64,000 nucleotides of DNA, taken from the NCBI GenBank assembly GCA_037833965.1, contig AP031355.1:19679501-19743500 (forward strand), written 5' to 3'. The notes under the pieces were generated by a model. The model did not search any database and was not told the origin of the DNA. It saw nothing but the letters and a program-made list of their open reading frames with translations. This DNA comes from Marchantia polymorpha subsp. ruderalis. Its lineage: Eukaryota > Streptophyta > Marchantiopsida > Marchantiales > Marchantiaceae. Shown here piece by piece: positions 8,257 to 61,841 of this stretch (position 1 is its first letter; each line of letters begins with the position of its first letter). A program made the translations under genes and the position numbers.

Positions 8257-8356
8257 CATGCAGCCCTTGAGGTTATGCTGTCAACTGAATTCGAAGCCCA
8301 GTCATTGGTATTTCGTTTGGACCTTCAAGCAACGCCCAGCCTTAACGGAGAGAAGG

Positions 8357-11300
8357 ATGAAGTCTCACGTACTGGTAACTGCAGTGCTGCTGTTAATCCA
8401 GCACCTGCTGGCTCAAAAAACGAATGGAGATTCCTCAAGATCATCCTATGCTTGTACTAGCAGAGAGTCCAAATCGTATTCATTTTGCGATAAGGCTCTT
8501 TCGATCGACGAGCGCGTTGCAGATTTAATCTCCCGACTCAGCTTGGAAGAGAAGATCTCTCAATTGGGGAATGGAGCTGACGCGATATCCAGTGTCGACG
8601 TTCCTGCTTACCAGTGGTGGGGTGAAGCGTTGCATGGAGTGGCATACTGTCCTTCCGTGCACTGGGATGGTCCTGTGAAAGGAGCCACAAGCTTCCCAAT
8701 GCCCATTTCATTGGCTGCATCTTTCAACAAATCTTTATGGAACAAGATTGGTCAGGTTTGCGCCCTTAAATTTCACTATCCGCCGGAGATTGTAGTTATT
8801 CTTCCTAAAAGTAAGTTCAACACGAGCCTGTCAATTTCGCCAACTGGGAGCTTTGCAAGCATGCATCACACGAGGGGAGGAGAACTCTGCATATTGGTAG
8901 AGCATAAATGCTGGATAGAACTGATCCTCATGAGATTGCTTTTGAAGATATCAGACGAGAACAAAGGCTGGCTGAAGCAAAAACCATGTACTTCTCATGC
9001 TACGAGAAAGAACTCCACAGACAGAATGATGGAAATACTTAAATACCTATCGGGGACCAACCTGCAAGCACACTAGTGTCAATTGAATTTCCCTTCTTGC
9101 TTTTGACCAGATGGACCTCTAATTCCATTCCTAAATCATAGGTCATATCAACCGAAGGCCGAGCGATGCACAACTTAGGGCAATCAGGATTGACTTTCTG
9201 GTCTCCAGTGATCAATCTGGTCCGAGACCCCCGATGGGGAAGAGTGCAAGAAACTCCTGGAGAGGACCCATATCTCATAGGACAATATTCAGTTTATTTC
9301 GTGAGAGGGATGCAAGAGGCGAAGGATTACGACCCTTCGAACGAAGACGACAACGAAAATGAGAATTTCGCGCTGAAAACGTCTGCTTGCTGCAAGCACT
9401 ACACAGCTTATGATCTGGACAACTGGCAAGGCGTCGAGCGCTACGACTTCGATGCTAAGGTACAGCAATCGTGATTGCAATTTCACTCGAGCCTCGGCTC
9501 GACAAAAAAACACATCTCAGTGAGTACGGTCCGCTTTTGCAGGCCAGCAACTACCAGTAGATGTACACGATGCCCATTGCTGTCAATGTGCGCACTGAGC
9601 TCAGACAGATACACCACTCGCTCACTCGTGAACGACTGACTGGATGTGCCGACTCTTTGTGAAGGTGACCATACAAGACTTGGCCGACACGTACAATCCA
9701 CCATTCCAGAGCTGTGTCGAAGAAGGAAGAGCTAGTTGTTTGATGTGCTCCTACAATAAAGTCAACGGCGTTCCGACATGCGCTGATCCGGAGCTTCTGA
9801 AAGGGACTGTGAGGGAGAAATGGGGCCTTCGAGGGTAAGTCCTGGAGCCGAGCTGACCTCCGAACAACCGCCACGTGGATTGCTTCCGGCTGACGTGACG
9901 CTGACTTGTGCTTGCATTGGATGACGTGTGGCAGCTACATCGTCACCGACTGCGACTCGTTGCTCGTCATGTACGACGAGTCCCGATATTCCAAAGGTCC
10001 TGCGGAGGCGATCGCGACTGCCATGCTAGCAGGTACCGAAATGATTTCCCTGCTTTACGACTAGCATGCTGACTACTAGCTCAGATCGTCACCGATCCGT
10101 CGATGATCTGTCTGCTCGACTGTTGACATGGATCATCATGCATCGGGGAGCCAAGACTACTACTTATGGCAGGGAAAATCCTGTGGTGTGAGCAGGGCTT
10201 GATCTGAATTGCGGTGCTACGATTAAAACCTATGGAGCTTCTGCTGTACAGCAAAGACTGATATCCGAAGCCGACATCGATCGAGCTCTGAATAATACTT
10301 TCACCGTTCTCATGAGGCTGGGAATCTTCGATGGAAACCCCCTCGATCAGCCTTACGGACGCCTGGGAGACGATCATATATGTAGTGAGGAACATCAAGA
10401 CTTGGCTACAGAGGCAGCTGTTCAAGGCATGGTGCTTCTGAAGAATGACGAGGACACCTTGCCGCTTTCTTCCCGTCATATCAAAACCTTGGCAATCATA
10501 GGGCCGAATGCAGATGATACGAAATACACAATGCTCGGAAACTATGCAGGTGAGTCGGTTCTCATGGAGACATAACGATCGGAGGTTATCGATGAACCTG
10601 CTTTTCTCCGTGCGAAACATCAGTTTCCTTTCTAGAATCGAAGTGAGCTGTGCATGAATGGAAATATATATAGCCCACTGTCATGGACCTGAAGCTCTCT
10701 ATAGGCTCTGCAGTGAAGCATGCAACATAATTGACAGGTGTCAGCATTTCTTGCCCCTTCAATGTGCAGGTCGACCATGCACGTATATCACTCCACTTCA
10801 AGGCTTATCGACCTACGAGATCAATAATGTTATCTTCGAACCTGGTTGCTCCAGTATAGATTGCAGCTCAGATGAGAAGATCGAAGATGCGTTGTCTGCT
10901 GCAAAGAAGGCGGACGTAGTGATTCTTGTGATGGGACTCGACCAGGACCTTGAGAGAGAAACATTCGACCGAAACAGCTTGAAATTGCCTGGAAAACAAG
11001 AGCTGCTCGTCTCATCCGTCGCAAATGTCTCAAATGGTCCAGTTGTGTTAGTGCTAATTTGTGGAGGACCCCTGGACATATCATGGGCAAAAAACGACTC
11101 CAGAATACAGAGCATTTTGTGGATGGGTTACCCTGGCCAGGCCGGTGGTCTAGCTTTAGCCCAAATAGTATTCGGTGACAGAAATCCAGGTGGGTTAACA
11201 AATGTTTCAGTGAGACTCACAGATGAAGCTCAGAACAAAAGCTGTAGGTCAAAGCCACATTTGAAACTTCAAATAATGCCCGTGAATTAACAATTTACAA

Positions 11301-11966
11301 CAGCGTAGGACCTATGCTGACCTCCGTTTAATCTCTTGTTTCTTTCTGGTTCCAGTTGGGAGGCTGCCAGTGACATGGTACCCTGAATCTATAACGGACT
11401 GGCCAATGACATGTATGAACATGCGACCGGACCCTCACACTGGCTATCCTGGACGGACACACCGCTTCTACAATGGACCTACGGTTTACGAGTTCGGGTA
11501 TGGCATGACCTACTCGAAGTCCACGACCATGGAAGTCACTGGACCCACCAATTTCACAGCACCTGCTTTGTTCCAACAGGCCTGTTATCACAAACGCTTC
11601 ACAGCAGAACAAAACGACTCTACTGGATGCTCGCCATCAGATCTAGTTGCTTGTTTGGAAGCAAGCCTTCCGATAAACATCACTGTTAAGAACAGAGGAC
11701 CCAGAGCTGTTACAGAGGTAGCGCTTGTGTACCATGTTCCCCCTAGAGCAGGTGAAAATGGCACCCAATTGAAAGAGCTGATTGCCTTCGAGCGAACCGA
11801 AGTGCAGCCCTTCTCGTCAAAGAAGATTCATTTGATCATTAATCTGTGCCATCACACAAGCACGGTTAAGTCAGACGGGAAGCGATCTCTTCAGTTAGGA
11901 ACTCATAAGGTTGTCGTAAGTCCAGGATCAGGAACATCTGCAGAACATAGGTTCTATGTACACTGA
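8357..11966 (+). CDS. Secreted GH3 beta-D-xylosidase, seven exons
   Basis: The spliced product is 789 residues, the normal length for plant beta-xylosidase/alpha-arabinofuranosidase. These apoplastic enzymes release xylose (and arabinose) from cell-wall xylans. Exons inferred from GT/AG sites and frame: 8357-8755, 9142-9459, 9665-9834, 9935-10032, 10196-10549, 10770-11189, 11356-11966. The start was set at 8357 because it begins a hydrophobic signal peptide ending near residue 20; an in-frame ATG at 8258 would bury it. Visible GH3 motifs: WWGEALHGV at 87-95, [15 protein letters not shown] at 162-176, Lys218-His219, [14 protein letters not shown] near 265-278, and VTDCDS with the likely nucleophile Asp301. 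PGQAGG and a C-terminal FnIII-like domain follow. Joining exons 6 and 7 with the best sites gives NPVGRLP where the family usually has NPGG(K/R)LP. The gene appears intact. Confidence 0.92.
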
Positions 11967-14934
11967 GCTTATGGTCTTCCTGATTTTCAAAATACCTCGG
12001 AATTTAGTACTCTCTGCTTGTTTCTGGAATTTGAACCGGCAACTTCCTCTAACACCGTTAGTGTTTGAATTTGCTTCATATCGATGTACGTCGCAGTACA
12101 TCGAGCAACCTTCTTAAACCTTTGCGGACTTCGATGTCAAGGGTTTAGGATTTAAGCTTAACCCTAAACGCTTAACGTAAACTTTAGCACATGAAAAGCT
12201 CGTGTTCTATTGAACTCTTAGAAATCTGAATCATATGCATAAACTTGAGCAAGAAAACGATTTTTAAGCTCTTAATGCGTTGATTTTGAGTTTTTTTATG
12301 TTGCTCAAAATCTAATCTACATGTATATGAACGCTGATTTTAGGATTTTGTTTTCATAGTCAAAACTCATTCATATCTAAACAAACATTTGAAGTCCCCA
12401 GATTTTATTTTTTCAGGGTAAGATCACAGTAAGTGCCGATCGGCTTGCAAGGAAACTTTTCTTATAAGAGAACTAAATCAGGGAGAATTTCTAACGGTAC
12501 ATTGAGTGCAATAGCAATTTTAAGAAACTTTGGCGTTCACCCAAATGCTAAGACTTGGGACTGAAGTCTTGACCTTGGATAATTTTTAATGTGTACCAAG
12601 TTTCTTGGTGAGCGATCAAAACCTCATGCATTATCCACGGGTAGTTCAAGGGTAGAGTTTTTCCTGGTTTCTCATTCTCCATATACTGAATACCTTATGT
12701 GCGCGTTAACTTCAAAGCTATTGTATAATTCCAATAGATTCTTGAAAATCGGCCACTGTTTTATTATAGTGTACTTGAGTGACAACCATACGTACACAAG
12801 ACCCATGTCCCTGTATACCAGGTGAAGTTGTCGACATTACATGACTTGTATCTCATGGGACCGGACTCTATTAACTCTTCATATCATGCCAAATCACGAC
12901 TGCGTCGATAGAGTTCAAGTGCGTCGATCTCAATGTATCGTCTTATATTGGCCGACAAAGCTGTGAAGTTCCTGCTAACGAGTTCAAGATTTTTGCCATG
13001 TAGATGCTTTCTGAGTTTGGAACCACACACTTCCTTTATTAGATTTACACTCATACTCTCAGGAAGAGCGCTTTATTGAGGGGTGGCAAACTTGGGGCTT
13101 GCAAGACATTTGAACTCTAAATTATCATAACTAGATCTGCTGTAGGGAACTTTCATCTTCATCATGTCATCTATCACTTCGATTTCTTATAGACGTTATG
13201 GGTTTCATCACCAGCTAGGTAATTAAGCCTTCATGTATATATTGACATTCCACTGATGGATCTAGACAATACAACTTTGAGCGAATGTTGGAAATTCCGT
13301 CAGTCATTCCAGTTTTTTCGTGGACCCCAATTTATTCTATTAAAAGTAATACATTCAAACTCAAGCTTACACGGAACCCGTTCAGCATTAGAATAGCTTT
13401 GTTTCTCGCGGTGGAAGTTTTTCCCTCCAGAATGTCAACGGATCTCAGGTTCAACCTTGTACTTTGATCAAACATCTAGCAATAATCGTACAATGGAATC
13501 CCGCAGTGAAGGATTATCTGCAAATGCAAGAATGTAAAATTCTGGCTCACAGTACGTGGTCAATTCTCTTTAATTCTGCTCCATAGTTCACCGAGCCTAG
13601 ACGCTGATCAGACTTTAAGCAAAGCTTTCAGTAATTGCAATCGATTTCTGTTAGAAGAAGAACCTTGATTGAAATTTTTCAGCTGTAACTTGGTTTCCAC
13701 TCAACTGTTCATGAATCAACTCTTGAAATTTGATGTGAAATTACAGTACATTCCTGCACGTTTCATCTGAATAGTGATATACCATGTTTTAGACGACTGC
13801 ACACACAAGCAACGCAAATACGAATGACTTACTTCTGAAATGTGAAAATATTCCTAACTTTCCGCTCTCTAGAAAATATACCCCATATTTCATCAGATGA
13901 AATCTTAGACTTATCTCAACCTTGAATGATTAATTAGCACCGGAACCACGGTTGACCGAAGACTGATGCTCAACTTTTCTGGAGTAGCTATCTCGATCCT
14001 GCATGGCCTAGTGATGAGAATACTAACTGAAGCAACTAATTTCGTGAAATGAAATATTTCCTCGAGATATGCATAAATAAATAAATAAATAAATAAATAT
14101 ATATATATATATATATATATATTACCTCGAGACCTGACCTGGAACTGCATCGATGGCCTTAAAATTATCAAGATAATTTATTACTCAAGAGTACTGCTAG
14201 AGGAATTTACTTATCCAATCATGGAAAATTTTGCGAGCTACCAAAAGTCTTAACATTTGCTAAGTCTTACTAAGCTACCTTATTCCATTGCAAAGAACGT
14301 TCTTCTTTCTTTTCAGATCTGATTACCAAGATCTGAATTAGCAATTCAGTTTGCTGATTAGCAAACTGAATGTCTTCACTTATTTCTGATAGTCTCTGTT
14401 GATTTTCAGATTAATTTTCCAGATGAAAACTGATAATATGAGAAAGCAACTCTTCAGCACACCTATCAGAGAGGAAATCTTTATTAACTACTCTTGAGCT
14501 ATCCTGATGGTTTGCTAACACAGTTCTTGAAATTGTTCTCTGCTCTATAAAAATTAAGACATCCGTGACGAGAATCCCAAGGCCATCCCAATGACTGGCT
14601 CACTTTCATCTAAAAGCTGTAAACCTACTCTACGCCATACTTATGAAGGTACTTGACTCAAATATTAGGAACCAAACTGGTGGCATATGTAGACAATCAA
14701 AGCTACGGTAACGCTGATCTGTGCCAGTTCATAACTGCCTTGTTATACACCTGGGCATGAACTGAAACAAGAACACAGTAAGTTCTATTTTCCACGTCTC
14801 CGCATGGACAATCTGTTATTGTTAGTCACATGAAGGCACAGTTTGAGCAGATCCTTATCGGTAGATTCAGTTGATTCAATTGTCAGTCAGAACTACTCAA
14901 CATCTGGGGAAGGTAGGGAGGCGTTCAAGGGCGG
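11967..14934. other. 3.0 kb intergenic, no gene seen
   Basis: AT-rich sequence with no protein-like frame on either strand. It holds a TAAA/TA microsatellite (listed separately) and a perfect 11-bp inverted repeat ATTCAGTTTGC near 14,345-14,372 with a six-base loop. It should contain the xylosidase 3' UTR and the 3' UTR of the convergent cysteine-rich gene. Confidence 0.4.
14077..14122. repeat. (TAAA)n(TA)n microsatellite
   Basis: About six TAAA units are followed directly by about eleven TA units. Confidence 0.9.
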
Positions 14935-15621
14935 TTAGTTTGCCACGAATGCTCGGCAAGAGCATGAGCAATTTCCTCTCGCGGGCGCAGGAACCTCAGC
15001 CGTCGAGTTTGAATCCACAGAATCCAAATGTTTCTCGAGGCAATTGCATTGTTCATTTAGCCTACAAGTAAAGCCGTCGCAAGGACATACCGTCCTGGCC
15101 AGTTGATTCACCGGACTCGGTGTCGCGCAGCCGCAAGAGCAGCATCCATTCTCCAGGGTGCAATTTGGCGAAGAGGGCTCCCGGGCCACACAAGTGCAAA
15201 TCTCACCGCTCTTACAAGCAACGTCCAGAGCTTCGCAGGAACAGCCTTCTTGAGGGTCGTCCGCGATCTCGGACCTGACGCAAGAACACGAGCAGGTGTC
15301 CTCATCTTGTGGCCATAGCACTCGCTTCACACAGAGGCAACTCTCGGACTGACTGCAGGTGTAGCCTTCGCACTTGCACTGCAGCCTCGGCACTGGCTTC
15401 TCAGGAATGTTCATCATTCTCTCATGGCACGAGCAAGAGCATGTCCCGTTGGACTCGTCTTCAAGACAAGCACAGTTTTGGGTCTGTGAACAAGTAAAGG
15501 CCTTGCACGGGCACTGAATTCTCTGCTGGAAATACTCCTCTGCTTGAACCTGCCACCGCAATCGCGAGCTTGTAACGAGGACGACCAGAATGAGCATCGG
15601 CAACCTCATCTGCTGGCCCAT
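14935..15621 (-). CDS. Secreted protein of four eight-cysteine tandem repeats, family unknown
   Basis: A single uninterrupted frame of 228 residues, reading 15621 to 14935. Residues 1-27 form a hydrophobic signal peptide (core LPMLILVVLV, likely cleavage after VQA). The mature part has 34 cysteines in four repeats with the pattern C-x-C-x(4 or 6)-C-x5-C-x-C-x(8 to 23)-C-x-C-x-C. Cysteines lie at 37/39/44/50/52/61/63/65, 82/84/89/95/97/110/112/114, 127/129/136/142/144/161/163/165 and 179/181/186/192/194/218/220/222; repeat 3 has two extra (154, 160). Each repeat ends in CSCSC or CSCGC. Four N-glycosylation sequons fall in or beside the variable loop (Asn58, 153, 205, 217). I do not recognise the family. 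A disulfide-rich apoplastic protein fits the signal peptide; metal binding is also possible. It is convergent with the xylosidase gene and has no visible introns. Confidence 0.75.
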   Translation of the reverse strand: MGQQMRLPMLILVVLVTSSRLRWQVQAEEYFQQRIQCPCKAFTCSQTQNCACLEDESNGTCSCSCHERMMNIPEKPVPRLQCKCEGYTCSQSESCLCVKRVLWPQDEDTCSCSCVRSEIADDPQEGCSCEALDVACKSGEICTCVAREPSSPNCTLENGCCSCGCATPSPVNQLARTVCPCDGFTCRLNEQCNCLEKHLDSVDSNSTAEVPAPARGNCSCSCRAFVAN

Positions 15622-16725
15622 CCTTACTGTGTAGAAGACGTCCAGATTTCTAGGCCGATGTCAATGAAGCCTCTATCGGGATCTGGTATAAGAATAACAA
15701 ACATGGCGAGCGCAGCAGTATACGACTACGAGATGAAGTCAACGAATACGACTCTGCTGTGTGACAGAGACGAGACCCACAAGAAGATCGCTTAGAGGAG
15801 CACAGGGCTGATGTTGACTACCAACGAGCTCAGAAGGCCGTCGTGCGACAAGATCTGCACGTAGCGAGTGTGCGTTGGAAACATGACGCACGAAAGCTGG
15901 AGCTTCGGTTGAGCTTTTCGATGAACCGTTCTGCGCGCATTTGATCATGTGATCGTGTTTCGCTGGACGACCATCTGGCGAACCCGCAACATGCACCTAC
16001 TCGCGTCTCTCACAACCTTCATATGCACCGGCTCCAGGTTTGAGTGATCGTTCATGATCACATGTTTCCAAGTCTACGCTACCAAGATCGAGTCATATTT
16101 ACCACTTTCCTCGCATCTAGTACAAATTTCGTCAACGCAATCAGCAGCCGCCCGAATGAATGACGCGAGACAACTTCACTGGACCAAAAATTTTCTCATC
16201 ATTCTGTGAAGAATGCCAATGTAGTAGGTTGAATCTGACGGTTGATGTTACTAGTATGGCATTGCTGGAGTATTGCACCAAAGAGTTAAGTGTAGGTCGC
16301 GCATGTCATGTGGTAGTGTGATCGATCTCATGAGGGGTTCAATAAGAAAGTATCGCACCTTATCACCAAGTACTTATGTTCTACATATGTGTATATATAT
16401 AACTTCCAGATTCAAAGAGAATGTTTCAATTTATGTATAGCGCAAAGGAACGGTTAGTTATTACTCACTTAGCGCTAATTAACCCTGACTCTAGTAGAAA
16501 CAGTTTTTTTTATTGGTCGATGGAAAATAGTAGCAAATGCAATAGCAACTTTAAGATTTTCGATCAATCAGATAAGACTAATTAGCCCTCTAAGTGAGGG
16601 ATAACTAGCCCCTGTAGCGTAATTATATTAGTGCTATATCAGTCACCAAGATATATTTAGTCGAAATGATTGAAAACTACTTCATGTAGGGAACAGGGTT
16701 GCAATGAGGCCGAAGGTGCAACAAG

Positions 16726-16727
<2 letters not shown>

Positions 16728-16768
<41 letters not shown>
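16728..16768. repeat. (TA)n microsatellite
   Basis: An uninterrupted run of about twenty TA units. Confidence 0.9.
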
Positions 16769-16770
<2 letters not shown>

Positions 16771-19700
16771 GAAAGTAAGTGTTAGTCTCCTCAAGATACT
16801 CAAAATTTCTTCTTAATTCACTGTAAAGTCAAAAGTGAAGCAATATGTGATTGGCATAAGTAGAGAAAAAGAGTAGAAAGTTGTCGAAATGTTGAGGGAG
16901 TACCAATATTGAACTAAACCTTTCTAACTCGTATTGATTAGACCGATAAGTCTTTCACCCCATATCTTATACTAATAGCCAAAGATATCATTTTTTTAAG
17001 TGTTTTATGCTTGCCACTCAAAAAAAAAGAAAAAAGGAAGTCAATTTGAGGGGCATGTTCGCCAAATAACCTCGTGAGTGAGTGATCACTTGAGACTGGA
17101 GAAAATCTATCGTGGAATATCATTAGTTTATAATGGAAAGCCATTTGGTAAAGTTACATAGTGGCATGACTTTTAGGGTGATGTTCTTCACTATCCACTC
17201 GCTTGTTTCTCCAAACAAGCGCAACATGACCTTTTTATGGCTTTACAGGTTCGTCTTTTCTACACCACTAGTAGATAGAGAGTTCCGTGCTAAAAGGAGG
17301 CATCTGGTTGTGATTGAGTCACAGAAGGGCAAAATGAGAAGGTAATGAACTAATAATTTGTTGATACATTGAGAAATTTCTACTTCCTTTTAGGACAAGA
17401 TTCACATAATTACTTCATATTTTTGCTACTCCCATGGCATGCCGTACTGATACTAGGTGCAATTGTTGTGCCAAACAATGTCAACGTAAGCATCATACAT
17501 GAAAACACCTAACAAAGTAACAAAGGAAATGACCAAATCACCATAAGTGAATTCCACGTATCTTATCAATCTTTACTCCCTGAATCAGTTTATCCAATAT
17601 AATACAAAAAATTTTCAGGCAATAATTGATTCATACCGCATTTCCGTCAACATGATTGGAGAACAGGACGTAGTATTGAATTTTTGAGTCAAAGTTAGCA
17701 TCCATAAACAAAACAACGAGATAATCTGATGCCTCTCACTCACTAACCACTTCAACAATAAAAGAAAGCCTACAAAATCAGCTACCTACTGCACTCTACG
17801 CAGCTAGCTTAATGACAACTAGCAGACGTCTTCAGCAACTCATCCATACGCTCTCATATCACACTTATAAAGCTTTTTTGGTTTATAAGATGCGGGGTCA
17901 ACTCCTACCAAGTGCACTTCATTTACTAATCCAATCATCATCTTCATGAGAGCTTGGGAGCAGGTTTTATTTGATCAGACCCTTTGACGGATTTCCTTGT
18001 TGACCAGACCCCAGACTTTGTATTGCTCATGCGTCCTTTCAATGAGTTCCAGGCTTGATCTTTAGACATGGAGAAGAACCTGATCTGTGAAGGTTGCTAT
18101 AGTACTGTACATCAAGCATTCGCTTATTGCATTGTCGTCCTTGAATAATAAAGCTCCTGGAATCTAGAATCTGAAACAGCTACAACTTGCTTATGTCCTT
18201 TTCGTATGTAAAACAACGATGGTACCCAGTCTTGTGAAAGTTATAAATGCAGGACTTTGCAAATGCTCTCACCCATCAAATCATCGAACACAAGCAAGCG
18301 CAAATATGGCTTTCCACAGCGGCTAGAGTTTTGACCGTTCCGGCCAATACAACCATGACCAGATGGGGTATGACCCTAAACCCATGCATGACCAATATAT
18401 ATCTATATATTTCAAGGGAAGAAACTTTGTAGGCCTTGCAGTCAACTCGTTGCTACAAAGAAGATATATCCGTGGTTCTATACAAAAATATTACTGGTGC
18501 ATGTGCTACTATTCCAAGAGTCATACTGTTTACTCTTGCACATGAAGGGGATTTTAATGACATGATCAGAATTTTTGATATTCGAATTATAAAGAGTTAA
18601 ATATCGTAGAAATTATGACATACCCATATAAAATTATGAGGAAAATGATGTATTTGATTTGATTTAATATATTATTGGAGCCACTTTCTACAATCTTTAT
18701 ATATTGTAGTCTTTAATTTGTATAAATTAGTACCACTGGAAACAACTATTTGAATTTTTTTTGTCATCCTCGTAATTTTCAGAAAATACGAAGATTAATT
18801 CTCAGAAATTTCAAATAAGGATGGGATTACAAGTAAAAAACGGAAAAGAAGCCAGTGGGAAGTCCCATTTGTGAAAAAGTGGTTAAATATGTCCACAAGA
18901 TTCGCAGAAATTCTTTGTGCGGAGGTACGACCGAAAGGTGGAATTCATCGGAAAAAGATGTACCTGAAATTGATGGTGATTCGTGAATTTATGAGTGCGG
19001 GGCTTTAGATATTACCCCTGGAGGTACGAGTCCGTCCATGAGTACACCCGCGAGGAATCAACGGCCACTGCAGATTTTTCGGTGAATGTTGAACTCCAGG
19101 AGATTTCAGCCTCATCTCTGTAGCTACAACCTTGTACGGTACAGAACATACCACTTTCTAAAGCTCACCTCGTCCACACCCAAGCAACTGGTTAGGCACT
19201 CCTCGATTGCTTCACTTGACAGGCTTATATTTATTGACATAGATGCCGAAGTCCTATCCATCTTTCAAAGTTGACTTCAAGATCATGAAGATAAACTCTG
19301 CACGATAATGTGATGGAGTCCCATGAATTGTTTACACTTCTTTCTCACAAAATCGATGCTGCAAGTGCTCAGGACTGTAAAGCAACACTTTGCAATTATC
19401 ACTTTGTATGCATTCTTTTACAACGCAAGTTCATGTGCAGCAATTGCGAACTTTGGACTCCTTCAGCGAGCGGAAAGTAGTTTCAAAAGTGAGTGATTGT
19501 TCAAGTTCTTCAAATTCGGTTTATCCTCATGATCGTTCTGAAGTGGAGATTAGATATGTAGTCGTGAAATAGTGGCTTATCATAAGAGATTCGTTCTTCA
19601 CGTTTTATTTTGAAATAGAGCCTTGACTTTTCGATCTAGGTTAGTCTTTCACTTTAACTTCAGTGGATTGATTTTCTAGCCAATTTTCCCATGTCTCTCC

Positions 19701-21985
19701 TGTTGCACGTGTTTCGAATAGAGTTATTTATAAGTACATAATCTCCAGGTTTTTTAAAGATGTGGTGAAGAATATAGAGTCCACTGAACTTAGACGCCAA
19801 TCTTGTATGGCTTGCTACTTCTGGCTTCGGTCAATATCTCCAACGCTCTCAAGAACACGGACGAGATTACCATATTCTAATTCTGTTCCTGCAAGCTTCA
19901 ATCTTGCCATGATGTAAGATGACAAAAAGAATGCTTCCTGGTCAAACACGATGATGAAATACCAATCACAACATATTACACAACGACTGACAATATTGAG
20001 CGAAGGTGAGCTATCAAGATAGCAAGGGATTTGAGGTTCATTTCATCTGCTTGGGCTTCTAGTAGATCTGGCTTCAAGTATTATGAAAAATTCATAAATA
20101 TTGGGTTAGTTTATGGTGGTGAGAGAGAAGCTTGATCTATTTAGAGACATGTAAAACCAGGACACTCTACATATCTAGTAGATGCTTGTAAATCTATCTG
20201 GAAATATATGGAGGTCATACTATGGCTAAACAGTGATGCATGAGCTGTGTATATAACTTGAGATCATTCAATTCAGATGCAGTGCATTAATTGGCTATGC
20301 ATAAATCTGAAAATGTATAGCCTGACGGGTCCATGCTCAGAGTGTTCGCGTAGGTGGCCCTCTCCTTGCATGCTTGACAGTGCCATGCTCTTCAGCTAGG
20401 GCCTCTAGGACCGTAGCTGCATGTATCGATCCTACGTCGTCTACACCAGCGGACTTTCATCTTTCCTCGCCCGACCCGCGAACAGTTCGTCATGGGTATC
20501 CGCAATCTATCTCCATTGAAATCCGTAATATCTCTCTAAATCTTTCAGAAGAGCATGGGATCCTGGAGCAGGGTTTGGACGAAACGTTTTACTTCATTTC
20601 ATGTCGCTCTCACACAGAGAACATAGAACATAGTTAATTAGAACGTATTAGGCCATGTGATTCTATCATAGCTTTGGTTTTACTATCCCTATGTTCTCAG
20701 TACCTACACACTCGATTATATTGGAACACTCAACTCAAATTGATTCGAAACAAGTTTAGTTGACAGAAGCCTGAATTTATCGAACTTTCATTTCCTGATT
20801 CCCCATCTGCGAGCTTCTGATATTCTGAACAGGGGCACACCAAATGATCTCACAGGATACAGATCTAATGAAACTCGAAGTCATGTATGTAGGTTCTTCT
20901 TTGTATGTTCTGCACCAGCGTTGATCTCTAAAAATACATGCGTCTTCTGCCAAATGTGTGGCGCTACATGGAACTACTTTATCTTACTTGAAAATAGACA
21001 TCGGAGTACACAATTTTGTGGAAACTGGTTGTGCATATTAGTAATTAAACTAGCTTGATGAGGTCAGGGCTCCACTCCTTAGCACGGAAAAATGAGAGCA
21101 GGAGAGCATGTAGAGTATGAACGGAGTAAAAGTGACGGGGGTAGAAAATCAAAGAATGATAAAGGAGGACGATTTAAATCTCTGAGAGTTATATTTGCTG
21201 CAACGAGCAGCCGGTCATTTACGTGTGTCGCCTTTTGAGAACAGTATAATTTTATGCATCCATCAAAGACTGATGTGGATGTCAGTTCCGATTGTTGTAA
21301 GTTGTTCTAACGTTGTGCATCACAATCTCTCCTGGGTCAACATCTTCGTGGACGACTTGCTGCTATTGCAATGATCAGAGGCTTTGAATGCAAATTCTCT
21401 GCCACATTCGGGCTTCCTTTATGTATCAATAAGTGGCTTCCGTCAGCTGGCACGATGTTTCATAGTCTTGTATGAGTCTTTCTTGATCTGTCGATCTGTC
21501 TGTGTATGATCTGTAGTACTGTGATGAAAAAGGAGACACTGAGAATAGCTCTGATGAACATTTTACACCATAAATATATATTGTATGGCCATGTGAGACA
21601 ACGGTCTTCAGCCTATGTCAAATGTCTACTTAATTCTTCTCACGAGGCTTTGGGGTTGTCTTGATATTCGAGGGCTCTTCTCTATGTCTCTGTCTGTGAT
21701 TGCTAAAACATCTGTGCACATAATCGAAATTTAAATACTTATGAGAGTTCAGAGTTGGATCATCGTCAAGGCTACATATAACCAGAGTAGGCACTACACA
21801 TCTTCGATGTTATTCATCCTTCTCATATAGAATAACGCGGAGAACTATATAAAGGAGTGAGATGGGATGGTACATTCGAGTTCCATGTTCTGGCTCAATA
21901 TTGAATCCTCTTTAGATACTTCTGCCCATCGTACCCCTTTGGCTACCCACACGGTTTCCGCTTCATTTAGACTCATATTCAGAGC

Positions 21986-53706: not shown

Positions 53707-54460
53707 ATCTCCCCATTAGCTCGCGTTAAGAGTATCATTAACCTCTCTAACCTATATTATTACTCAAACGGACGGAAAGTTCTGGACGGAAATCTAACAC
53801 AAGGTACCTCTTTAAACAAGAGTTAACTAGAACCAAGCCGTAACCATATTAGGATAGAGTAATAATATATAGAGGTAACTTAACAGTCTCCCTTATCTCG
53901 TGTTAAGGAATCTCAGTAACCTCTCTAACCTATATAATTACTTCCATAACATGATAGAGTAATAACATAGAGAGATAACTTAACAATCTTCCCTTAACTT
54001 GTGTCAAAGAATCTCAGTAATCTCTCTAACCTATATTATTACTTCCATAATATAATAGAGTAATAATATACAGAGGTAACTCAACAATCTCTCCTTAACT
54101 CGTGTTAAATAATCTTAGTAACCTCTAAAACCTATATTATTACTCTCATAACATGATATAGTAATAACATACAGAGGTAATCCAACAATCTCCCCCTTAA
54201 CTCATGTTAAAGAATCTCAATCATCTCTCTAACTATATTATTATTCCCATAACATGATAGAGTAAAAACATACAGAGATAATCCAAAAATCTCATCCTTA
54301 AGTCGTGTTAAGGAATCTCAATCAACTCTTTAACCTATACTATTACTCCGCGTGAAGTTCTAGAAGTAAACCTACCACAATGTCCCTCTTTAAACAATCA
54401 TTAAGTAGAACTAAGCCGTAGTCATAACATAATAGAGTGATAATATACAAAGATAACTAA
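53702..54460. repeat. Tandem array of about 100-bp units between RNase H and the 3' LTR
   Basis: Six units begin near 53702, 53881, 53981, 54081, 54182 and 54283. Each opens with CAACAATCTCCCCTTAACTCG or a variant (the polypurine tract in reverse) and contains CTCTCTAACCTATATTATTACT. The four inner units are 100-101 bp. The outer two are about 178 bp because they keep a 78-bp segment (TCTTTAAACAA, AAGCCGTA) lost from the inner ones. Confidence 0.85.
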
Positions 54461-55017
54461 AATTCATATTTCTCGTGCTCTCGATGCACAACTTGCATAG
54501 TAGCACAGTGTTGCCTGAAACTCTTCAAAAAAATAACTTTGGTCAACACATCAATTGGATTGAGTTTACCGTTGATCTTCACTAACTCAATTGTTTTCTC
54601 AGACATTGCTTGTCCAATAAAGTGATACTTGATGTCGATGTGATTCACTCTACCATCCATGACTTGGTTTGCAATCAAATGTAAAACACTTTGGCTATCA
54701 CAATGAAGATTGATCACGCCATGTGTGAATTTCATCTTCATGATAATATTATTCAACCAAATAGCTTCCTTTATTGCTTCTGTTGCCGCCACATATTCAG
54801 CTTCCATTGTTGATTGAGTTACACACTTCTGCAAGGTAAATCTCCAACTAATGCTTCCACTGCCAAGTGTAAACACATATCCAATTGTAAATTTACTTTT
54901 GTCTAAATCTTGTTCAAAGTCAGCATTAACGTAGTCAAACAAGGACTTGGCATTGTCTAATAATCCATCAAACAATAAGCCATAATCCATAGTACTCTTC
55001 AGATATCTCAAAATCAA
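54457..55017 (-). pseudogene. Copia RNase H fragment
   Basis: An open frame of 186 codons with all main Copia RNase H blocks: FDYVNADFEQDLDKSKFTIGYVF, STMEAEYVAA, NLHCDSQSVLHL and HIDIKYHFI. The acidic residues of the active site appear present. It is the only long intact frame left in the element and lies just upstream of the ~100-bp array. The rest of the polyprotein is broken, so no functional product is expected. Confidence 0.85.
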
Positions 55018-61259: not shown

Positions 61260-61841
61260 ATGGCAATGGCGGCCGTCGCATCCACCAGCGTCATCGGAGT
61301 GGCAGCAGCCCCAAGGGCTGTGGCAATCTCCGCCCCCAAGACCGTGTCGTTGAGGCAGAATGGAATGATGGGAGCTCCCCTGAGGAAGTCCGCAGGAGTG
61401 CGAGCCGTGAGGAGAGCGGGAGCCAGAGCCGTCGTCACTGCGCAAGTCGCCGAAGCTGTGGATTTGGACCAGCTCGTGAGCACCATCAAGAATTTGACCT
61501 TGGCCCAGGCCCGGACTTTGGTCGACACCCTGCAAGAGGAGTTGGGAGTCACCGCCGCTGCCTTCGCCCCTGCTGCTGCCGCGGGCGGTGCTGCACCCGC
61601 CGAGGCTGCCGCAGTCGTGGAGGAGAAGACCGAGTTCGATGTCGTTCTGGAAGAGGTTCCCACCGCTGCTCGTATCGCCGTGATTAAGGTCATCCGGTCG
61701 CTCACTGCTCTCGGTTTGAAGGAGGCCAAGGACCTAATTGACGGCCTGCCCAAGAATGTTAAGGAGGCCGCAGGAAAGGAGGACGCCGAAGACGCCAAGA
61801 AGCAGCTCGAGGCTGCCGGAGCCAAGTGCAGCCTCAAGTGA
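61260..61841 (+). CDS. RPL12: Plastid 50S ribosomal protein L12 (bL12c), nucleus-encoded
   Basis: An intact single-exon frame of 193 residues. L7/L12 forms the flexible stalk of the large ribosomal subunit and recruits translation GTPases; here it serves plastid ribosomes. Residues 1 to about 62 are an Ala/Arg/Ser-rich transit peptide with almost no acidic residues. Then come the dimerising N-terminal domain ([20 protein letters not shown]), an Ala-rich hinge ([14 protein letters not shown]), and the C-terminal domain from TEFDVVLEE through [20 protein letters not shown] to [11 protein letters not shown]. Length and order match plant plastid L12. The ATG at 61260 was chosen; a second Met two codons later would also serve. 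Codon use is GC-rich, unlike the AT-rich surroundings. Confidence 0.95.

Follow-up and report, generated by a model that had tools for sequence, protein, structure and literature searches.

The open reading frame (ORF) at 14935-15621 of the window, the 64,000-nucleotide stretch of the Marchantia polymorpha subsp. ruderalis genome analysed here, raises the question of what kind of protein four copies of one eight-cysteine pattern make up, and whether it belongs to any catalogued family. Much of plant defence and peptide signalling depends on secreted cysteine-rich proteins, and to our knowledge those of non-vascular plants are poorly catalogued. A sequence-only reading of the window had described a secreted protein of 228 residues and 34 cysteines, built from four eight-cysteine modules and belonging to no family that it recognised. 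Below we ask whether the gene has relatives in the same genome, what the module might look like and do, and how it compares with known systems.

A four-module gene in a family of four

The length, the cysteine count and the four modules were all found as described, and the strand, which the sequence-only reading left unstated, is the minus strand (Table 1). The coding sequence is a single intact ORF with an in-frame stop 42 nt upstream of its ATG, and the plus-strand frame of the same interval is interrupted by stops. The modules follow the pattern C-x-C-x4/6-C-x5-C-x-C-x(8-23)-C-x-C-x-C, which occurs four times in the mature protein; in 20,000 composition-preserving shuffles it occurred once in 55 and not at all in 19,945. 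The signal peptide that had been claimed is matched by a signal-peptide-like N-terminus, in which the hydrophobic stretch LPMLILVVLV (best 10-residue hydropathy 3.26) is present and VQA precedes the likely cleavage site after residue 27, where one of three sites obeying the -3,-1 rule ends. Hydropathy analysis found a strongly hydrophobic core in the N-termini of all four genes of the family described below. The window protein is probably secreted, and for all four proteins such N-termini suggest a route through an oxidising compartment.

Whole-genome protein searches with the window protein and each paralogue as query linked four intact ORFs, which all lie on contig 6. The window protein found the five-module protein at E 9.7e-21 and was found by it at E 6.5e-23. 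The two-module query reached the five-module protein at E 2.3e-5, the five-module query reached the one-module protein at E 3.1e-4, and the one-module query reached the two-module protein at E 3.5e-4 and the window protein at E 5.0e-4. Weaker links were obtained from the window query to the one-module (E 0.0175) and two-module (E 0.284) proteins, from the five-module query to the two-module protein (E 0.011), from the one-module query to the five-module protein (E 0.0039), and from the two-module query to the window (E 0.0088) and one-module (E 0.018) proteins. A hand-made consensus module searched against the genome matched seven places, all within these four genes. Five of the 12 known modules escaped this query, and those of the window gene that it did detect scored only E 0.44 and 0.60, which makes four genes a lower bound; a divergent one-module gene may have been missed. 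The reversed mature window protein (201 aa) gave nothing at E<=10 in the same genome, which is a coarse control because it produced no first-look candidates. Three weak genome rows (L012, L013 and L022; E 0.40, 0.84 and 2.46) were dropped, as they hold two to four cysteines and no module.

Aligned, the 12 modules give the consensus C-P-C-x-G-[YF]-x-C-x-x-G-[EQ]-x-C-x-C, a loop, and C-S-C-S-C. Frame position 12 is E or Q in every module, position 6 is Y or F in 10 of 12, position 5 is G in nine and position 11 is G in eight; inserts in two modules (one residue in gap 1, two residues in gap 2) were trimmed before these residues were counted. The eight frame cysteines are present in all 12 modules by construction, since the module-finding pattern demands them. 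With the additional pair in the window gene's module 3 as the one exception, however, the mature proteins have no cysteine outside the modules (34=4x8+2, 40=5x8, 16=2x8 and 8), so no broken module escaped the pattern. Modules measure about 30-45 residues, occur in one, two, four or five copies per protein and are separated by spacers of 6-16 residues (eight spacers). With mature parts cut at a signal-peptide end judged by eye, the net charge is -11 for the window protein, +7 for the five-module, +6 for the one-module and +4 for the two-module protein. The eight-cysteine frame, the consensus residues and the protein-search links together place the window gene in this four-gene module family.

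The loop before the closing motif had been said to grow from 8 to 23 residues along the window protein, and its measured lengths of 8, 12, 16 and 23 in modules 1 to 4 agree; in the five-module protein the loops measure 8, 10, 8, 14 and 12 residues, in the one-module protein 10, and in the two-module protein 13 and 21. The sequence-only reading had named the loop as the only strongly variable part; in addition, the second gap of module 3 has six residues, and the spacers of the window protein vary in length (16, 12 and 13 aa). Sequons had been reported for three of the four repeats, and modules 1, 3 and 4 do have them in their loops (N58, N153, N205 and N217). The window gene thus has four sequons and the one-module gene two, but the five-module and two-module genes have none, so a glycosylated loop as a design feature of the family is not supported. 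Of the idea of a fixed cysteine frame with one variable, glycosylated loop, the repeated frame and the loop as the part of greatest length variation hold across 12 modules in four genes, and glycosylation as a shared feature is not supported.

Table 1. Positions of the window gene, its parts and its paralogues. Numbers without a contig are window positions.
Feature	Position	Strand	Remarks
Window gene	contig 6, 19.69 Mb		four modules, 228 aa
Intact single-ORF coding sequence	14935..15621	minus	228 aa + stop, 34 Cys
Signal-peptide-like N-terminus, aa 1-27	15541..15621	minus	predicted from hydropathy and cleavage-site rule
Module 1, aa 37-65	15427..15513	minus	8 Cys, loop of 8
Variable loop, module 1	15442..15465	minus	sequon N58
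Spacer between modules 1 and 2, HERMMNIPEKPVPRLQ	15379..15426	minus	7/16 identities to same spacer of five-module paralogue
Module 2, aa 82-114	15280..15378	minus	8 Cys, loop of 12
Variable loop, module 2	15295..15330	minus	no sequon; LWP in common with module 2 of five-module paralogue
Module 3, aa 127-165	15127..15243	minus	10 Cys (extra pair in loop), loop of 16
Variable loop, module 3	15142..15189	minus	sequon N153 and two extra Cys
Module 4, aa 179-222	14956..15087	minus	8 Cys, loop of 23
Variable loop, module 4	14971..15039	minus	sequons N205 and N217
Five-module paralogue	C6:16175359		253 aa
Two-module paralogue	C6:13799322		122 aa from first ATG; 111 or 112 aa from internal ATG
One-module paralogue (L043)	C6:28218667		81 aa

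That no family could be recognised held up in searches of Pfam, NCBIfam and the PDB. Pfam scans of the window protein, its three paralogues and the 12 modules gave no significant match to any family; at E<=10 the whole proteins drew PF21559 (E 0.23, window protein) and PF06155 (E 6.1, two-module protein), both below the cut-off, and the modules drew PF14554 alone (E 0.48, one of 12). Pfam includes models of Bowman-Birk, Pin-II, nsLTP, GASA, defensin, hevein, EGF and metallothionein families, and the first seven of these gave no row at E<=10 with the four proteins or the 12 modules. Significant matches were likewise absent from NCBIfam (window protein), PHROGs (window and five-module proteins) and the PDB searched by sequence (window protein, module profile and mature five-module protein). 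The window protein gave 39 pattern stretches in prokaryote contigs and one in viral contigs, none of them a relative by tblastn, and the five-module protein gave no pattern match in viral contigs and no tblastn match to phages and plasmids. These collections are not known to include plant genomes, and their empty results therefore say little on other liverworts. Among the open-licence PMC articles listed by literature searches, no title or start of an abstract describes the family, and the available parts of PMC9901580 and PMC12890914 do not mention it, the term "cysteine-rich" being absent from the text of the latter. Secreted tandem disulfide-rich proteins are a well-known kind, to which the frame seems to add a new family.

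Predicted module structure and possible function

The sequence-only reading had suggested that the structure of one repeat be predicted and searched with Foldseek. A model of module 2, built from a four-row alignment of window sequences only, has a mean pLDDT of 61 and strands at residues 18-24 and 35-41, which fall on C4xC5 and C6xC7xC8. The full-length single-sequence model has a mean pLDDT of 49, higher in modules 1-2 than in modules 3-4 (mostly <50), and places strands on CxC and CxCxC in all four modules. The models, which are of low confidence, list strands, not their pairing; on our reading the strands probably form a hairpin with the variable loop as its tip. In a strand every second residue points to the same side, which would set five of the eight cysteines on one face. 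Searched against the PDB, the one-module model gave no Foldseek match and the full-length model gave eight, none significant (best E 0.81, probability 0.03); VIA-align, with one chain to compare, reported none.

We tentatively favour a functional gene of a small, secreted, disulfide-rich modular family whose product is a multivalent, protease-resistant binder, likeliest in apoplastic defence, a reading that we hold to be possible but short of even chances. Each module would most likely be a small, covalently pinned beta-hairpin, with C4xC5 and C6xC7xC8 on its two strands and their cysteines toward one face. The N-terminal C1xC2x4C3 segment may fold back over this face, and the length-variable loop would protrude as the hairpin tip. 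Several such modules in one chain could yield a protease-resistant, multivalent extracellular binder, and its likeliest use would be apoplastic defence of the protease-inhibitor or antimicrobial type, with the tip loop touching the target. The additional cysteines of module 3 number two, which is what a further disulfide would need. Nothing among the features points specifically to an inhibitor or to an antimicrobial: no fixed loop sequence of the inhibitor kind was seen in the 12 modules, and since the mature window protein is acidic and its paralogues are basic, the four are unlikely to share a single membrane-active mode. A more far-reaching version, in which this is an undescribed liverwort disulfide fold, a cysteine-faced hairpin with tip loops of 8-23 residues that is used in one to five copies as an extracellular recognition or inhibitor repertoire in immunity, seems to us improbable.

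The proteins might instead be precursors of signalling or effector peptides, the spacers being cut and single modules acting as ligands, which we consider unlikely. The gene L043 implies that a single module can stand alone, the modules are set apart by spacers, and in progranulin modules are set free by proteolysis, according to the available part of PMC4527844; inspection of the eight spacers by eye, however, revealed no cleavage motif common to them.

The abundance of CxC steps brings to mind a secreted metallothionein-like protein whose CxC and CxCxC thiolate clusters would bind Cu, Zn or Cd in the cell wall or the apoplast. Every module contains three or more CxC steps and closes with CxCxC, the cysteine content is 14-16% in three of the four proteins (8 of 81 residues in the one-module protein), and aromatic residues are few, two to seven per mature protein. 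The signal-peptide-like N-termini of all four genes nevertheless speak for an oxidising route, the extra cysteines of module 3 are paired, and no metallothionein model of Pfam gave a row at E<=10 with the four proteins or the 12 modules. Metallothioneins also differ from these proteins with their conserved Y/F and E/Q positions and long loop insertions, and we regard metal binding of this kind as distinctly unlikely.

A third alternative, which appears highly doubtful, sees in the module a paragranulin-like descendant of a plant granulin domain's N-terminal half that keeps part of the hairpin stack. Granulin domains above the Pfam cut-off were found in this genome at L037, L038 and L039 (contigs 6, 9 and 6), and a fourth row, L040, lies below it. 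With the module profile, the PDB sequence search returned a granulin peptide as its top row, not significant at E 0.54 over 15 positions. Aligned with hhalign against the genome's granulin domains (the three of four rows above the cut-off), the module places Y-S-C-x5-C-x-C of its first half on Y-S-C-x5-C-C-C over only 15 columns with a probability of 7-8%, and two of 300 column-shuffled granulin profiles score as high; neither score is significant, and granulin was picked after the PDB rows had been seen. Natural half-granulins do occur in animals, as stated in the available parts of PMC4527844 and PMC7463432. The granulin model PF00396, however, gave no row at E<=10 with the four proteins or the 12 modules. 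Granulins show successive CC pairs, and 11 of the 12 modules have none, the single CC being in module 3 of the window gene; filing the family as granulin was rejected on the late choice of granulin and the missing pairs.

With four known genes, a clear frame and one member cut to a single module in an 81-aa protein, the family is suited to a complete knockout and to structure determination by NMR. If the loop-tolerant hairpin is true, the module would be a natural scaffold for displayed loops; if it is false, the genes would be one more lineage-restricted secreted family.

Descent, constraint and surroundings

Modules 1 and 2 of the window gene find those of the five-module gene as reciprocal best matches, and the intervening spacer aligns ungapped. 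Together these indicate that both genes probably descend from one multi-module ancestor. In the module 1 pair, one of eight loop residues is kept versus four of 11 non-cysteine residues in the first segment of the frame; the module 2 pair keeps five of 11 frame residues, and LWP is found in both of its loops. On these small numbers the loop is perhaps more variable than the frame.

Of the 24 cysteine codons aligned in the module pairs 1/1, 2/2 and 4/5 (4/5 is not a reciprocal best match), 10 differ, all by silent TGT/TGC changes. Over a 61-codon ungapped block, the two genes differ at 38 third positions and at 25 first and 21 second positions. The silent cysteine-codon changes and the excess at position 3 fit constraint on the cysteines and the protein. 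The two genes are so diverged that dN/dS between them is uninformative: by NG86, dN is 0.44 and dS is saturated; YN00 disagrees with dN 0.86 and dS 0.70, an excess of dN that does not speak for constraint. When window positions 9501-21000 were compared by blastn with the 9.9 kb surrounding each paralogue, no match reached E<=1e-3, coding parts included, which argues against a recent segmental copy.

Upstream of three of the four genes (L003, L005 and L006) a TATA motif, TATATAAG or TATAAAAG, lies 67, 134 and 117 nt before the ATG, the internal ATG being used for the two-module gene. In the 400 nt upstream of the window gene TATA[AT]A is absent, and only TATACC was seen by eye, at about -69. 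That its ORF is a decayed or non-expressed copy is very improbable, for although it is without the exact TATA motif that its three paralogues have and shows dN > dS by YN00, its frame is intact, all 32 frame cysteines are kept and its cysteine-codon differences to the paralogue are all silent.

Elsewhere in the window, two plus-strand ORFs at 10658-11966 match the glycoside hydrolase family 3 C-terminal (E 2.9e-32) and Fn3-like (E 2.3e-6) domains, and the ORF upstream of them at 8258-9076 has no Pfam match alone; together they look like exons of one gene adjoining the cysteine-rich gene, presumably of beta-xylosidase type. A plus-strand ORF at 61260-61841 combines an N-terminal extension with the two ribosomal L7/L12 domains, the N-terminal dimerisation domain and the C-terminal one, and is probably the plastid protein. 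The minus-strand ORF at 54457-54990 has no Pfam match at E<=0.001 and resembles, from a motif recognised by eye, the end of a copia-type polyprotein. Around the paralogues, a repeat lies upstream of the five-module gene (L041 2447-3836) and downstream of the one-module gene (L043 6497-8536), 12 Mb apart and oppositely oriented with respect to the two genes; the copies are 96% identical over 666 bp at best, and this is probably a dispersed repeat.

Comparison with known systems

The VEGF heparin-binding domain (PF14554) has the same C-x(n)-CxCxC closing motif, and was rejected as a relative, its E-values in Pfam and in the PDB (1.2) being at chance level. Metallothioneins are alike in being CxC-rich, but differ from the Marchantia proteins, which have a signal-peptide-like N-terminus, a conserved aromatic position, long loops and no row for the Pfam model. 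Granulin modules (PF00396), natural half-granulins included, are also extracellular, often tandem and cysteine-rich, and share the local Y-S-C-x5-C-x-C match, whereas the Marchantia modules are shorter, mostly without CC and without a significant profile score.

Bowman-Birk and potato type II (Pin-II) inhibitors are plant proteins that are likewise secreted, disulfide-rich and made of one or several units. In Bowman-Birk inhibitors the loop between CxC steps has a fixed length and a recognisable sequence, whereas the Marchantia loops range from 8 to 23 residues and the proteins draw no Pfam row for that family. The secreted cysteine-rich repeat peptides (SCREPs; PMC6262176) are a data-mined class rather than a homologous family; their members are also secreted tandem disulfide-rich domains, and the available part of that article emphasises bivalent, high-avidity binding.
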